A DNA stretch of 64,000 nucleotides from contig JAFRPY010000044.1 in assembly GCA_017428925.1 (NCBI GenBank), forward strand, positions 61,882 to 125,881. Direction: 5' to 3'. The stretch comes from Prevotella sp. Its GTDB lineage: Bacteria > Bacteroidota > Bacteroidia > Bacteroidales > Bacteroidaceae. This document shows positions 5,695 to 45,228 of this stretch, piece by piece; the first letter of the stretch is position 1, and each line of letters opens with the position of its first letter. The notes under the pieces were generated by a model that saw nothing but the letters and a program-made list of their open reading frames with translations, did no database searches and was not told the DNA's origin. The translations under genes and the position numbers were made by a program.

Positions 5695-5740
5695 GCGAAA
5701 AATGCCCTCGATTCAGAACCGTTTCAATCAACCTTTAATT

Positions 5741-5817
5741 GAAATGCTTCCGCTCAGCGGATGGATTGTTTCCGCTCAGCGGATGGATTGCTTCCGCTGG
5801 TTAAATGGTTTCCAATC
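5741..5817. repeat. Short GC-richer tandem repeat before the 22-bp array
   Basis: Two near-identical copies of a 22-base unit containing CGCTCAGCGGATGGATTG follow each other after the receptor stop codon; a third copy breaks down after CGCT. The unit length equals that of the adjacent AT-rich array at 5818, but the sequence is different. Inside each unit CCGCTCAGCGG is a small imperfect inverted repeat. No gene is seen here. Confidence 0.7.
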
Positions 5818-5949
5818 AGACTTTATTTGGTGTGCAATCAGACTTTAATTGGACTCAAAATAGACTTTAATTGGACTCAAAATAGACTTTAATTGGACTC
5901 AAAATAGACTTTAATTGGACACCATTCAGACTTTGATTTAAGATAATCG
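5818..5949 (-). repeat. 22-bp intergenic tandem array D
   Basis: Six heads beginning AGACTTT occur at 5818, 5840, 5862, 5884, 5906 and 5928, an exact 22-base period; three middle units are identical. Read on the minus strand the shared core is TAAAGTCT, the same core found in the arrays at 31447 and 43530. The array ends 63 bases before the -33 box of the epimerase promoter. Its function is unknown. Confidence 0.85.
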
Positions 5950-16420: not shown

Positions 16421-16596
16421 ATGCCAAAACTCCTCGGGCCCCCTCCAAACCTCCCCCGAAGGGAGAGGCTTTCTTATCGGCGGATTCTATCTTTCCCTCA
16501 CGAGAAAACCGATAATTTCATTTGTCAAAGAACGAATTGCAAGAGAACGCTTTCTCGTGCTGAGATGCATCTGATTTTTTTTGTTTTTCTGTACTG
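16421..16596 (-). other. Possible leftward transcript with GC-rich hairpin and tiny ORF
   Basis: Downstream of a minus-strand promoter-like sequence at 16628-16597 lies a 27-codon frame beginning MHLSTRKRSLAIRSLTNE. It is followed, near 16474-16456, by a hairpin of CCTCTCCC and GGGGGAGG with a UUC loop. Neither the ORF nor an RNA family is recognised. It could be a dispersed intergenic repeat rather than a gene. Confidence 0.3.
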
Positions 16597-16699: not shown

Positions 16700-16853
16700 C
16701 AGGGATTTTAGTTTCTTATCTTCTTAATTTCTTATCTTTTAGCTTTTAAAAAAAGAAAAAAAATATATAAATATATAAATTTTTCTCTCTTCAAAATCGC
16801 AAAAGATAAGAATATAAGAATATAAGAAACTAAGAAACTAAGGTTTTGCCCTG
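16700..16853. repeat. Long inverted repeat (hairpin element A)
   Basis: Arms 16708-16740 and 16801-16833 match at 30 of 33 positions as an inverted repeat (TTAGTTTCTTAT...TTATCTTTT), with a 60-base AT-rich loop. Outer CAGGG (16700) and CCCTG (16849) add a second complementary step. The loop is homologous to the loop of the element at 31320, but in the reverse orientation. No transposase or ORF lies inside. Confidence 0.88.
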
Positions 16854-16885
16854 TACCAGCGGGCTGAAGCCCTGCATAAGGCTTT

Positions 16886-17017
16886 TCATAGTATGCATAA
16901 TATCGGTACATAGTCTGCATATTGTCGGTGCATAGTCTGCATATTGTCGGCGCATAGTCTGCACAACGTCGGTGCGCTATCTGGATGCGCGCGTTCTAAA
17001 GTCTGCACGCCATTTGC
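16886..17017 (+). repeat. 22-bp intergenic tandem array A
   Basis: Heads of the form nCATAGTCTG occur at 16886, 16908, 16930, 16952, 16974 and 16996, an exact 22-base period. The last head is CTAAAGTCTG, identical to those in the arrays at 31447 and 43530, and is followed by CACGCCA as at the end of the 31447 array. It starts 33 bases after hairpin element A. Confidence 0.85.
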
Positions 17018-17126: not shown

Positions 17127-17158
17127 TTTGCACATTTCCAAGAAAAGTTGTATCTTTG
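17127..17158 (+). promoter_or_regulatory. Promoter before the candidate structured RNA
   Basis: TTTG at 17127-17130, exactly 20 bases, TATCTTTG at 17151-17158. This is a full consensus match. The nearest start codon with a signal peptide is 235 bases downstream, leaving room for an RNA of about 180 nt. Confidence 0.75.
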
Positions 17159-17163
17159 CAAAG

Positions 17164-17342
17164 TAATCAGTTACCCCCCCCGATACTGAATATTTTTGAG
17201 GTAGAATGACCTGACGAAAATCCGCATGATGCTGGCTTTATCCCCCTGCTTGCCAGCATTTCCCGATTATGGCCACAGGGTTCGGACGGGCAGGCCACGA
17301 GCAGCGCCAAAAGCCATTTATTTCTTTTTAACCTCTGATTTA
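17164..17342 (+). ncRNA. Candidate structured RNA or long leader
   Basis: Possible pairings seen by eye are: TCAGT 17167-17171 with ACTGA 17185-17189 around eight C; GAGGT 17198-17202 with ACCTC 17331-17335; ATGCTGGC 17229-17236 with GCCAGCAT 17252-17259; TGGCC 17270-17274 with GGCCA 17293-17297. CCCTG (17244-17248) and CAGGG (17276-17280) in the two hairpin loops could kiss. A second -7 box for the next gene follows at 17365, so this may be a free RNA rather than a leader. I do not recognise the family. Confidence 0.5.
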
Positions 17343-17364
17343 GCGGTTTTCCAGATTAATTACT

Positions 17365-17372
17365 TAACTTTG
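17365..17372 (+). promoter_or_regulatory. -7 box of the DUF3298-like gene
   Basis: TAACTTTG at 17365-17372, with a weak TTTA 22 bases upstream, 21 bases before the ATG at 17394. Confidence 0.55.
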
Positions 17373-17393
17373 CACCGCAATACGCGCGCATAT

Positions 17394-18194
17394 ATGAAAA
17401 GAAATATCATGGTTTGGATTGCCGCCCTGGCTATTGCAGCCTGCGGCAACGAAGGACAACGCACGGTGACCAAGGCCGGCAGCATCGATCTGGACAGCAT
17501 CACGGTGGACACTACGGTGGCACTCACCGACGATGCCGACGCACCCAAGGCCCACATCCACCTGAGCATGGTCTACGGCAAGGGCGATGAGAGCAAGGCG
17601 CTGAACAAGACCATCGTGCACGCCGCCCTGATTGCTCCCGACTACATGGGAATGCTGAGCGACGACGTGACCGTAAGACAGGCCGTAGACTCGTTTGTTA
17701 TCAACTATATCAGCGACTACCTGAGGGACTATGCCCCACTCTACCGCGGCGACCGCGAGCACCGCCAGTCGTATGAGTCGGAATTCACGTGCCATTGCAC
17801 GGTGGAGAACAACCGCGACGGCATCGTCAGCTATATCGCCCACAGCAACACCTACGGCGGCGGCGAGCACAGCGTGAGTTCGACCATCGTGAAGAACATC
17901 GAGCTGAAGACGGGAAAGATTCTGACCTTGGAGGACATCTTCGTGCCCGGCTACGAGCAGCCGCTGAAGGACCTCATCGTCGAGGAACTGTGCCACCGGC
18001 AAGACGCCAGCTCGCTCACGGATTTGCAGGAGAAAGGCTTCTTCTCGGGCATCGAGCCCTATGCCACCGACAACTTTGTACTGGGCGACGGCGAAATCAG
18101 GTTCGTCTACGTCGACTCTGAGATTGCGCCCCACGAGACGGGTGAAATCACGGTGGTGCTGGACGACAGTAAAATTAAACAACTGATGAAATGA
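17394..18194 (+). CDS. DUF3298/RsiV-like lipoprotein
   Basis: A 266-residue predicted lipoprotein: MKRNIMVWIAALAIAACGNE contains a short hydrophobic segment and a lipobox Cys at 17. The C-terminal half has TYGGGEHSVSS and IELKTGKILTLEDIF, then EIAPHETGEITVVL, the pattern of DUF3298 (RsiV C-terminal-like) domains, preceded by a DUF4163-like region. The start at 17394 was preferred to the open frame from 17226, whose first 56 codons cover a promoter and the candidate RNA. It overlaps rsmG by 4 bases (ATGA). Function unknown. Confidence 0.8.
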   Translation: MKRNIMVWIAALAIAACGNEGQRTVTKAGSIDLDSITVDTTVALTDDADAPKAHIHLSMVYGKGDESKALNKTIVHAALIAPDYMGMLSDDVTVRQAVDSFVINYISDYLRDYAPLYRGDREHRQSYESEFTCHCTVENNRDGIVSYIAHSNTYGGGEHSVSSTIVKNIELKTGKILTLEDIFVPGYEQPLKDLIVEELCHRQDASSLTDLQEKGFFSGIEPYATDNFVLGDGEIRFVYVDSEIAPHETGEITVVLDDSKIKQLMK

Positions 18195-29067: not shown

Positions 29068-31230
<2,163 letters not shown>

Positions 31231-31261: not shown

Positions 31262-31298
31262 GAAGTGCACAGAAGTCCCTCTTCGGTGCACTTCTTTT
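31262..31298 (+). terminator. Terminator after mutB
   Basis: A perfect 9-bp stem GAAGTGCAC (31262-31270) / GTGCACTTC (31286-31294) followed by four T. A run of eight G (31301-31308) lies just behind it. Confidence 0.8.
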
Positions 31299-31319
31299 AT
31301 GGGGGGGGATAAACGGTTT

Positions 31320-31443
31320 CTTAGTTTCTTATATTCTTAATTTCTTATCTTTTGCGATTTTGAAGAGAGAATAATTTATATATTTATTCTTCCTCCCCCC
31401 CAAAAAGCTAAAAGATAAGAAATTAAGAATATAAGAAACTAAG
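31320..31443. repeat. Long perfect inverted repeat (hairpin element B)
   Basis: Arms 31320-31353 and 31410-31443 are perfect 34-base inverted copies (CTTAGTTTCTTATATT... to ...TTATCTTTT) around a 56-base loop. The arms match those of element A at 16708 almost exactly. The loop is element A's loop in reverse orientation: GCGATTTTGAAGAGAGA at the left here, its complement at the right there. No protein is encoded in it. Confidence 0.92.
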
Positions 31444-31446
31444 ATT

Positions 31447-31578
31447 GAAGATTCTGCACGACTGGCTTCTAAAGCCTGCACGACTGGTTTCTAAAGTCTG
31501 GATGACTGGCTTCCAAAGTCTAAACAATAGGCTTCTAAAGTCTGAACAATAGGCTTCTAAAGTCTGAACGCCACATAT
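31447..31578 (+). repeat. 22-bp intergenic tandem array B
   Basis: Heads CTAAAGCCTG, CTAAAGTCTG, CCAAAGTCTA, CTAAAGTCTG and CTAAAGTCTG start at 31469, 31491, 31513, 31535 and 31557, exactly 22 bases apart, with a degenerate unit at 31447. It begins 4 bases after hairpin element B and ends with AACGCCA, matching the end of array A (CACGCCA). The rest of 31579-31710 is AT-rich and contains the palindrome CCAAATATATTTGG (31615-31628). Confidence 0.88.
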
Positions 31579-31610: not shown

Positions 31611-33368
<1,758 letters not shown>

Positions 33369-42793: not shown

Positions 42794-43492
42794 ATGCTTG
42801 AAGAACTGAAAGAAAAAGTGTTTCGTGCCAACTTGGATTTGGTGAAGCACAACCTCGTAATCTTCACGTGGGGTAACGTTTCGGCCATCGACCGCGAAAA
42901 GGGACTGGTCGTGATTAAGCCTTCCGGTGTGGAATACGATAAGATGAAAGCCTCCGATATGGTGGTTGTTGACCTCGAGACGGGTAAAGTGGTGGATGGC
43001 GACCTGAATCCTTCCAGCGACACACCCACACACCTTATATTATATAGGGAGTTCCCAGAAATCGGAGGCGTGGTTCACACCCACTCCACCTATGCCACCG
43101 CTTGGGCTCAGGCCGGCAAGGACATTCCCAACATCGGAACCACGCATGCCGACTATTTCCACGACTGCATCCCCTGCACCGACGATATGACGGCCGAGCA
43201 GATGCCCGAATACGAGAAAAATACGGGCGTGGTCATCGTTGACCGTTTTCGTCGCGACAACATCAATCCCGTACACACCCCAGCCGTTCTGGTGAAGAAC
43301 CACGGTCCTTTCTCTTGGGGCAAGGATGCCGACCAGGCCGTCTATCATGCCGTAGTGACTGAGCAGGTGGCCAAGATGGCCTTCGTTTCGTTCTGCGTGA
43401 ATCCCGGAACAACCATGAATCCGCTGCTCGTTGAGAAGCATTTCAGCCGCAAGCACGGCCCCAATGCCTATTACGGACAAAAGAAGAAATAA
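42794..43492 (+). CDS. araD: L-ribulose-5-phosphate 4-epimerase
   Basis: A 232-residue class II aldolase-fold enzyme converting L-ribulose 5-phosphate to D-xylulose 5-phosphate. Motifs: [44 protein letters not shown] (zinc His pair), and [20 protein letters not shown]. The start lies 30 bases after the regulator. A 197-base gap with a 22-bp repeat array separates it from araA. Confidence 0.95.
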
Positions 43493-43529
43493 ACTGACGA
43501 AATTCAATTAGGCTTTAAATGCGATGCTT

Positions 43530-43661
43530 CTAAAGTCTGGAAGGAATGCTTCCAAAGTCTAAAAGGAATGCTTCCAAAGCCTAAAAGGAATGCTTCCAAA
43601 GCCTGGAAGCAACCTTTCCAGACTTCAGAAAGAAAGCGTCTAAAGTATGGAAACAAACAAT
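43530..43661 (+). repeat. 22-bp intergenic tandem array C inside the arabinose operon
   Basis: Six units at 43530, 43552, 43574, 43596, 43618 and 43640, exact 22-base period. Heads are CTAAAGTCTG, CCAAAGTCTA, CCAAAGCCTA, CCAAAGCCTG, CCAGACTTCA and CTAAAGTATG; most tails are GAAGGAATGCTT-like. It has no hairpin element next to it and ends 28 bases before the araA start codon. Confidence 0.88.
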
Positions 43662-43689: not shown

Positions 43690-45228
43690 ATGAAAGCATT
43701 TGATAACTATGAAATTTGGTGGGTGACTGGTGCACAGTTGCTCTATGGAGGTGACGCAGTCGTACAGGTAGACGCTCACTCCAAGGAAATGGTGGATGGC
43801 CTGAACAATAGTGGAAACATTCCCGTAAAGGTAGTTTATAAAGGTACAGCCAACAGCTCTAACGAAGTGGAAGCCGTGATGAAGGCTGCCAACAACGATG
43901 AGAAGTGCGTGGGTATCATCACCTGGATGCACACTTTCTCTCCCGCAAAAATGTGGATTAAGGGTCTACAGGACTTACAGAAGCCGCTGCTCCACTTCCA
44001 CACTCAGTATAATGCTGAAATTCCCTGGGAGACCATGGACATGGACTTCATGAACCTGAACCAGAGTGCTCACGGCGACATCGAGTTCGGCCATATCTGC
44101 ACCCGTATGCGCGTTCCACGCAAGGTGGTTTGCGGCTACTGGAAGAACGAAGAGGCCCAGAAGAAGATTGCCGTTTGGGCTCGCGTGGCCGTTGGTGTTG
44201 CCGACAGCCGTAACGTACGCTGCCTGATGTTCGGCATGAACATGAACAACGTGGCCGTGACCGACGGTGACCGCGTAGAGTTCGAACAGCGTTTGGGCTA
44301 CCATGTTGACTACTATCCCGTAAGCTCGCTGATGGACTACTTCAAGAAGGTAACCGACGCAGAGGCTGATGCCCTCGTGGAGGAGTACAAGAAGGAATAC
44401 ACCATCAAGATTGACGAGAGCGGTGAAGAAGTATATTGGGAGAAGGTGAAGAATGCCGCCAAGGCTGAAATTGCACTCCGCCGCGTATTGAAGGACGAAG
44501 GTGCCACCGCATTCACCACCAACTTCGACGACCTTGGTGATGCCGACATCGACGATCCGAACTTCGTTGGCTTCGACCAGATTCCAGGTCTTGCCTCTCA
44601 GCGTCTGATGGCCGAAGGTATCGGTTTCGGTGCCGAAGGTGACTGGAAGACAGCCTGCCTCTATCGCACGCTTTGGGTAATGTCACAGGGTCTGCCCACA
44701 GGCTGCTCGTTCCTCGAGGACTACACCCTCAACTTCGCCGGCAACCGCAGCTCTTGCCTCCAGAGCCACATGCTCGAGGTTTGTCCGCTGATTGCCGTCG
44801 ACAAGCCTAAGCTGGAAGTTCACTTCCTCGGCATCGGTATCCGCAAGCAACAGACTGCCCGTCTCGTATTCACCTCAAAGGTTGGACACGGCATCAAGGC
44901 TACTGTTGTTGACCTCGGCAACCGCTTCCGCCTGATTTCACAGGAAGTGGAGTGCATCGAGCCGAAGCCCATGCCTAACCTCCCCGTGGCTTCTGCCCTT
45001 TGGGTGCCGCAGCCCACATTCGAGATTGGCGCAGGTGCATGGATTCTGGCTGGTGGTACTCACCACAGTGCTTTCTCTTACGATATCACCGAAGAGTATT
45101 GGGAAGACTTCGCCGAAATCCTCGGCATCGAGTATGTCAAGATTAACAAGAGCACCAATACCTTCGACTTCAAGCAGACGCTCCGCAACAACGAGATCTA
45201 TCACATGTTGAACAAGGCGTTGATGTAA
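43690..45228 (+). CDS. araA: L-arabinose isomerase
   Basis: A 512-residue metal-dependent isomerase converting L-arabinose to L-ribulose. Conserved parts visible: EIWWVTGAQLLYGGDAVVQV, WMHTFSPAKMWI, LLHFHTQYNAEIPW, GFDQIPGLASQRLMAEGIGF (metal Glu), LEDYTLNF (metal Glu), and GAWILAGGTHHSAFSYD (His). Length is slightly above the usual 500. It is followed after 16 bases by the kinase. Confidence 0.97.
   Translation: MKAFDNYEIWWVTGAQLLYGGDAVVQVDAHSKEMVDGLNNSGNIPVKVVYKGTANSSNEVEAVMKAANNDEKCVGIITWMHTFSPAKMWIKGLQDLQKPLLHFHTQYNAEIPWETMDMDFMNLNQSAHGDIEFGHICTRMRVPRKVVCGYWKNEEAQKKIAVWARVAVGVADSRNVRCLMFGMNMNNVAVTDGDRVEFEQRLGYHVDYYPVSSLMDYFKKVTDAEADALVEEYKKEYTIKIDESGEEVYWEKVKNAAKAEIALRRVLKDEGATAFTTNFDDLGDADIDDPNFVGFDQIPGLASQRLMAEGIGFGAEGDWKTACLYRTLWVMSQGLPTGCSFLEDYTLNFAGNRSSCLQSHMLEVCPLIAVDKPKLEVHFLGIGIRKQQTARLVFTSKVGHGIKATVVDLGNRFRLISQEVECIEPKPMPNLPVASALWVPQPTFEIGAGAWILAGGTHHSAFSYDITEEYWEDFAEILGIEYVKINKSTNTFDFKQTLRNNEIYHMLNKALM

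Follow-up and report, generated by a model that had tools for sequence, protein, structure and literature searches.

A composite of a long hairpin, an array of 22-bp units and a tail ending in ACGCCA occurs as a three-copy intergenic element with a conserved right boundary in one Prevotella genome, and its array half belongs to a larger class of 22-bp arrays that extends beyond the composite. Members of this class are rows of species-specific, often dyad-symmetric sites with centres exactly 22 bp apart; we found them in the source genome and in the relatives G016, G070 and G024, with thinner sampling elsewhere in the genus, and in G016 the centre spacing held whatever the orientation of the sites. 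The reading that we favour, with a probability of roughly 45%, combines the three-copy composite with an array class that would represent rows of putative dimeric-protein sites two helical turns apart. The source genome is a draft (3.56 Mb, 122 contigs, 85% complete), G016 is a single contig at 99% completeness, and G024, G070 and G026 are also 99% complete. The source-genome sample includes the window, that is, the whole 64-kb stretch analysed, where the elements El1 and El2 were first noticed.

Reading, folding and period calls all confirmed the first-pass annotation's description of an inverted repeat followed by an array of 22-base period at two places in the window. The long hairpin of El1 (16708..16841) has arms made of steps of about 8 nt (TTAGTTTC TTATCTTC TTAATTTC TTATCTTT) and an AT-rich loop; the arms, 16708-16738 and 16811-16841, are 31 nt long and 84% complementary, or alternatively 62 nt at 76%. 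Its plus-strand array (16875..17005) consists of CATAGTCTGCATATTGTCGGTG and relatives and ends in the unit CTAAAGTCTG, the period-22 call covering 16887-16975 (4.0 copies, score 122), and the tail TAAAGTCTGCACGCCA (16997..17012, plus strand) forms the right boundary common to the three composites. El2 follows closely on the methylmalonyl-CoA mutase gene mutB (29068-31230), directly behind an inverted repeat 3' of that gene that is terminator-like by eye (31262..31294, plus strand). The El2 hairpin (31319..31444) is of the El1 family, with arms at 31319-31362 and 31401-31444 that are 91% complementary and, at 44 nt, longer than the 33-34 bases originally given for the arms. The array of TTCTAAAGTCTG-type units (31453..31570, plus strand; period 22, 5.4 copies, score 138) and the tail TAAAGTCTGAACGCCA (31558..31573, plus strand) complete the element.

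Folded as single-stranded DNA, El2 and El1 gave z scores of -13.3 and -7.2 against shuffles, and none of 200 shuffles was as good for either. With at most one mismatch, the arm motif TTAGTTTCTTAT occurred 8 times in the window (0.17 expected) and CTAAAGTCTG 10 times (3.1 expected). The array core had been described as common to both elements, which is true of the last El1 unit, CTAAAGTCTG, but not of the other El1 units, which are CATAGTCTGC-like. Rfam at gathering score yielded two tRNAs elsewhere in the window and no family at the elements; sub-threshold matches on the long hairpins were mostly to miRNA-precursor families. Separately, a short GC-rich inverted repeat at 16439-16465 of the window (CTCCCCCGAAGGGAG) matches the source-genome stretch L201, which also matches L086 and L152, and similar CCCTCC/GGAGGG inverted repeats are present in the samples of G000, G016 and G003.

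Searching the source genome with the El2 hairpin gave 14 matches, which fall into seven loci: El1 and El2 themselves, the terminus of contig C84, two sites in C44, the beginning of C18, and C53. At C84, half a hairpin runs to the contig end with a 22-bp array beside it in the same relative order, and the El1 array aligns to the C84 array at 72% over 71 nt (E 0.004). The element had been described as present twice; this partly sequenced third copy, together with array-less hairpin halves at the C44 end and C18 start, corrects that count, and it also means that the two copies do align to something else, contrary to the outcome that the first-pass annotation had named as refuting its view. The C44 end and the C18 start both lie inside a hairpin of the El1/El2 family, no 22-bp array adjoins either, and they may be two halves of one hairpin. 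Single arms lacking both loop and array lie at C53:59897 and C44:5375. Counting C44/C18 as one, an array adjoins three of four hairpins and neither of two single arms; two of those three hairpins, El1 and El2, constitute the original finding, and the independent confirmation is C84. Three contig ends fall inside long hairpins of this family (L150 5888-5975, L151 10493-10582 and L092 1-81), so more hairpin copies may be hidden by assembly breaks of the draft genome.

All three composites share one order: hairpin, 22-bp array, tail TAAAGTYTKMACGCCA, then a same-strand open frame. ACGCCA closes the array in El1, El2 and C84 alike, and these three copies with one order and one tail support the picture of a composite that is dispersed and keeps its right boundary. 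No further perfect match to TAAAGTYTKMACGCCA was found in the source genome beyond these three, from which the pattern itself was written; with up to two mismatches there were 16 matches and 16 in controls, and so only perfect matches were counted. The frame after El1 is a DUF3298 gene (17226-18194) and that after El2 an ABC-type ATPase gene; at C84 it is a 262-aa frame judged by length only, which overlaps another frame. A motif of the form TANNTTTG, which we take to be the Bacteroidota -7 promoter element with a putative promoter role, starts 139, 138 and 73 bp after the tails of El1, El2 and C84, respectively, and the motif is a common one. The instances before the DUF3298 gene (TATCTTTG, 17151..17158, plus strand) and the ATPase gene (TAATTTTG, 31711..31718, plus strand) are presumed by us to have such a role. 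The composite has no protein of its own. It is real and small.

The hairpin is not placed uniformly within this plan. The El1 hairpin matches that of El2 better on the reverse strand (86%, 152 bits) than on the forward strand (78%, 99 bits), so that the reported correspondence of the loops holds after reversal and not as placed. Relative to the array, El1 and C84 agree and El2 is flipped; since the arms are palindromic, this flip amounts to an inversion of the loop. Beyond the source genome, 59 others were searched with the hairpin, and none gave a match at E ≤ 1e-8. In a contig collection, from which the source record was possibly left out, two stretches had one exact match each to the arm pattern. 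G024, G026, G028 and G070 each showed one long inverted repeat that lies no more than 200 bp from a 22-bp array and does not overlap it, and in G016 one long inverted repeat abuts an array; by a rough estimate rather than a computation these are too few to exceed chance, and we rejected a hairpin-plus-array composite as a habit of other species.

One explanation for the three copies, also raised in the first-pass annotation, is a mobile, MITE-like unit in which hairpin, array and tail move together by means of a transposase encoded elsewhere, as in BrickBuilt. The copies do share their order and right end, and the modular plan resembles the leader, 23-nt array and tail of BrickBuilt in the part of the source available to us (PMC4596501). 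Against movement of this kind, neither El1 nor El2 has ends that mirror one another as inverted repeats, taking the hairpin start as the left boundary; El2 lacks a target-site duplication of at least 4 nt, and one of the ATTT kind seen at El1 arose at 521 of 2,000 random placements. The IS5-type terminal inverted repeat (GAGACC..TTGCA, up to two mismatches) is absent at both elements and occurs 16 times in the window against 19.8 expected. The reversal of the El2 hairpin relative to its array also tells against a unit moved whole, as does the lack of the El-family hairpin at all 15 further source-genome array loci examined. After mutB, no clean empty site was found in 29 relatives, gene order differing where it was read, and the hairpin was absent from all 29, the best match being 16 nt (E 0.43). 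We consider a mobile composite unlikely.

The arrays extend well beyond the composite. In the window alone, two 22-bp arrays, of TGCTTCCGCTCAGCGGATGGAT type and then AAGTCT type, abut each other on the minus strand at 5728..5949 with no long hairpin, and another, also lacking an El-family hairpin, lies on the plus strand (43508..43650, array site 43508-43631) between an aldolase-II gene (42794-43492) and araA (43690-45228). Units were also seen to switch type in register: those with ATGGG, CTGAG, CTGAT and ATAAG centres keep the 22-bp phase beside AAGTC units, at 5728-5949 of the window and at L145 2848-3017, L143 2918-3097 and L136 2863-2936. Across the source genome, AAGTCTG three times at 22-bp steps gave 41 matches against 18 for the reversed pattern, and another form gave 58 against 2; matches within one array overlap, so that 41 and 58 are not array counts.

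Elsewhere, AAAGTCT at 22-bp steps matched 13 of 99 other genomes, with 22 matches in G070 against none in its control. The idea that the source unit is widespread in other species was dropped, as the 98 genomes outside G070 gave 24 matches against 36 for reversed-pattern controls. With Tandem Repeats Finder, periods of 22, 44 or 66 accounted for 12 of the 30 non-coding arrays sampled from the source genome, 6 of 17 from G024 and 7 of 31 from G016. Period 22 was the commonest single non-coding period in all three samples, and the unit sequences differ between the three genomes. Among coding arrays, period 22 made up 1 of 12 (source genome), 0 of 11 (G024) and 2 of 6 (G016), a division that rests on crude gene calls. 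Counted by lag in 1.38 Mb from the genus, 41 arrays fell at 22 and 32 at 44, the next lag, 14, having 19. Within this total, eleven thinly sampled other genomes of the genus (270 kb pooled) gave 7 at lag 22, 8 at lag 14 and 6 at lag 21. Outside the genus, 0.34 Mb sampled across the order's other families gave one array at 22 and three at 23. The 23-bp arrays in these other families, at L185 8226-8305 and 9626-9762 (G053) and L176 156-237 (G037), have the period of BrickBuilt.

The step is not 22 everywhere in the genus, as shown by 21-bp arrays with palindrome-like units in G003 (L156 3190-3287) and, after mutB, in G146 (L213). Heptamer microsatellites of the CTGTCAA and CTCTCAA types, in L160 (G009) and at L167 3128-3193 (G028), are the source of several lag-21 signals and probably account for lags 14 and 28 as well. 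After mutB itself, 3 of 29 relatives (G006, G028 and G075) have a 22-bp array with its own unit; the G146 array there has a TTAGGCTAA unit, and 21-bp lag signals also appear in G019 and, further on, in G006. One low-complexity stretch with signal at all lags (L217) was dropped from this survey.

The spacing rule was clearest in G016, where the units have GACGC within the dyad GTAATYT-GACGC-ARATTAC, the search pattern itself dictating the letters next to the core. Of 89 pairs of GACGC cores found genome-wide in the same orientation and 14-43 bp apart, 80 were spaced by exactly 22 bp and none by 21 or 23 (10 matches in the reversed-pattern control). Opposite pairs, GCGTC then GACGC, were 22 bp apart centre to centre in 29 of 33 cases, again with none at 21 or 23; this count is genome-wide for that arrangement, with each pair, found on both strands among 66 rows, counted once, and its control gave 4 rows, or 2 pairs. 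When both opposite arrangements were taken in the G016 samples, 32 TGACGC pairs lay at 22, 44, 66 or 88, none one base off and two elsewhere. Of the 119 AAAGTC pairs in G070, 87 were listed: 55 lay at 22, 13 lay at 44 and 17 fell elsewhere, while of the distances one base off 22, 21 had two pairs and 23 had none. As a control, AAAGTC pairs in genomes where it is not the unit fell at 22 in 0 of 32 cases (G024) and 0 of 31 (G016, with one at 44). AACGTT pairs in the G024 sample gave 27 at multiples of 22, none one base off and two elsewhere. For AAGTCT, a source-genome sample not chosen for spacing gave 9 pairs at 22, 6 at 44 and 4 at 66 against an average of 0.19 per distance; with loci chosen for spacing included, the count rose to 105 pairs at 22 or its multiples, no pair being off by a single base. 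We regard the phase rule as well supported, by genome-wide counts in two relatives that are 99% complete, those for G070 coming from the pairs listed.

Neutral minisatellites would be the simplest source of such rows, as functionless products of slippage with a mutational bias towards period 22. Source-genome arrays clearly expand locally, neighbouring units being 0.75 alike against 0.50, which makes local duplication evident, and the differences in unit sequence between sampled species are what neutral change would give. Slippage does not readily account for G016, in which units of only about 55% likeness, and units facing opposite ways, keep exact phase and distances of 21 and 23 are absent. 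There, the sequence between cores comes in 78 distinct 17-nt stretches with a mean likeness of 56%, 2 of the 17 letters being fixed by the pattern, and unit likeness is 0.61 for same-orientation neighbours (n = 19, p 0.03), 0.53 for opposite neighbours (n = 11) and 0.53 between arrays. Opposite pairs at the same 22-bp step cannot be produced by head-to-tail duplication, and by our own estimate neutral divergence to this level should leave some 21s and 23s. The rarity of dyad symmetry in arrays of other periods also counts against a neutral origin: in the genus, 2 of 63 such arrays were palindromic at p ≤ 0.05, against 12 of 41 period-22 arrays, where some arrays were entered in two pieces and two source-genome arrays are near copies. 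A neutral origin thus seems very unlikely.

Dyad symmetry could reflect either a protein site or a stem. Dyad sites number scores in G016; none of nine G024 arrays passed the dyad test, and the excess at 22 of perfect or near-perfect 17-bp dyads came mainly from the source-genome and G070 samples, not from G016 or G024. The spacing of near-perfect dyads as such carried little signal and was set aside as a measure. If the units were transcribed stem-loops with conserved loops (AAGUC, GACGC), binding an RNA-binding protein or stabilizing 3' ends, the arms should pair. Source-genome units do fit stems of 6+5+6 with several arm types (CAATT/AATTG, CTTCC/GGAAG and GTTCC/GGAAC), with weakly positive arm covariation (29 and 50 of 2,000 permutations reach the observed value), and convergent positions are common in the source-genome set. 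G016 arms, by contrast, showed no covariation (1,653 of 2,000 permutations reach the observed pairing), and of the 53 distinct G070 units listed that carry G at position 5, 72% have G and 8% have C opposite it, at position 13, placing G.G in the would-be stem. Orientations are mixed within arrays, and two array segments showed no folding advantage over shuffles (z -0.15 and -0.97) and matched no Rfam family at gathering score. A dyad without arm covariation in G016, together with G.G in G070, points to a protein-type dyad rather than a conserved stem; source-genome arrays are less clear on this point. Hairpins of RNA or single-stranded DNA were accordingly rejected as a general explanation, on the lack of covariation in G016 and the mostly G.G mismatches in G070, and we hold RNA hairpin arrays to be improbable.

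Array position relative to genes differed by species. Between convergent genes lay 11 of 29 source-genome array regions, 17 of the stretches behind this set having been selected because they contain AAGTC arrays or hairpins; the G016 figures were 1 of 11 convergent and 4 of 11 divergent. The gene calls behind these counts are crude and wrong for at least El1. Because position varies by species, neither a terminator role nor a promoter role is uniform.

Arrays that are species-specific, mostly non-coding in the samples, numerous and present in both orientations also recall REP sequences, in which units would act as single-stranded DNA hairpins copied by a tyrosine (Y1/RAYT) transposase that recognizes the loop. 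In G016, all three Y1_Tnp loci (L196, L200 and L202) are flanked by TGACGC sites at multiples of 22 bp. Two proteins of the NHVH/YIHQNP type are encoded in the source genome, 287 and 299 aa long from stop to stop, and their Y motif is that of the Bacteroidetes subclass 2.6; as far as the source at hand describes them, proteins of this subclass average 179 aa and their genes are flanked by atypical secondary structures (PMC6006769). Mismatches of the G.T kind exceed A.C on the core strand (25.6 against 10.6 in G016 and 10.2 against 5.2 in the source genome; array-weighted, arm positions 2-6), a suggestive count, but one that follows largely from column consensus and is not taken as proof. Opposing evidence comes from G024, G070 and G026, which have 22-bp arrays yet no PF01797 match at 1e-5, in searches that covered 8 and 150 genomes. 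Nor does a 22-bp array lie beside either Y1 gene of the source genome (0 of 2), and 37 Y1 loci (117 kb) contained seven arrays at lag 22, in five loci, against 3.5 expected. Of the three G016 Y1 proteins, one is broken and the two that were read have a YQYIYQQ motif, unlike the subclass 2.6 signature, and we know of no REP system with spacing locked to 22 bp. RAYT mobilization was also discarded as a candidate when the flanking sites of G016 did not extend clearly to other species. Copying by such an enzyme appears quite unlikely.

We therefore return to rows of protein sites, the reading given at the outset. Each unit would be a putative site for a dimeric, sequence-specific DNA-binding protein, and with sites two helical turns apart the proteins may line up next to each other along the same face of the DNA. 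The site sequence would drift between species together with its protein. The long hairpin is probably a separate dispersed repeat that became joined to an array and was copied with it; as the composite shows, such joint copying of array and hairpin module can occur. An earlier suggestion that the elements are kept as regulatory sites comes close to this reading of the arrays, as putative sites. Exact two-turn spacing between unlike units and opposite orientations is hard to explain by drift, and the 22-bp rule suggests that some protein or process measures out 22 bp along these chromosomes. As the unit varies by species and the spacing is constant, a partner factor must be genus-wide yet change its specificity, a contrast that offers a direct route to finding it. 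That all this amounts to an undescribed, genus-wide chromosomal system of 22-bp-locked dyad rows, with a putative species-specific reader protein and, here, a hairpin partner module, is a tentative proposal that we rate well short of even odds.

Several known systems share parts of this organization. Iterons, the direct repeats of plasmid origins, measure about two helical turns and bind a single protein in phase; they are confined to one origin next to a rep gene, whereas the arrays here are scattered over the chromosome. CRISPR arrays consist of short, regularly spaced identical repeats separated by unique spacers; here, by contrast, the 22-nt units abut and the whole unit is the repeat, with no unique spacers. 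REP/BIME sequences and their RAYTs are closer, being species-specific intergenic palindromes with many copies and clusters in both orientations in the sources as available to us (PMC3733652; PMC6006769). The sites described here differ in being locked to 22 bp, in having arms without covariation in G016, and in occurring also in genomes (G024, G070 and G026) where no Y1 enzyme was found at 1e-5; flanking of the Y1 gene by repeats was seen at 3 of 3 loci in G016 and 0 of 2 in the source genome. A CGTC resembling the REP foot lies within the G016 core GCGTC/GACGC, but centrally, and the source core is AAGTC. These observations do not establish the arrays as REP/RAYT members.

Porphyromonas gingivalis is, like Prevotella, a member of the Bacteroidales. 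Its MITE with a minisatellite, BrickBuilt, has 23-nt units between leader and tail, predicted stem-loops, 19 copies in one strain and a range limited to the species and a close relative, with IS5-like terminal inverted repeats of which both are intact in 4 of 19 copies, according to the portion of the source consulted (PMC4596501). Like BrickBuilt, in which leader and tail are shared between copies, El1, El2 and C84 are intergenic composites with a hairpin and an ACGCCA tail in common, a likeness of plan. The period is 23 there and 22 at El1 and El2, and the same portion of that account describes neither a separate long hairpin module nor phase-locking of unlike units (PMC4596501). By period and by terminal repeats the elements fall outside BrickBuilt, and the MITE traits sought at El1 and El2 gave unrelated ends and no target-site duplication beyond chance, which leaves the suggested transposase movement without its expected marks. 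PINSR, a 188-bp repeat of the Prevotella intermedia/nigrescens group with 177 and 184 copies, is likewise lineage-specific, intergenic, probably non-coding and without terminal inverted repeats, and it too occurs in Prevotella; it is set apart by its description as a 188-bp repeat, which mentions no 22-bp structure in the part available (PMC4755523). BrickBuilt and PINSR are thus the closest known systems, BrickBuilt in plan and PINSR in lineage-specificity within Prevotella.
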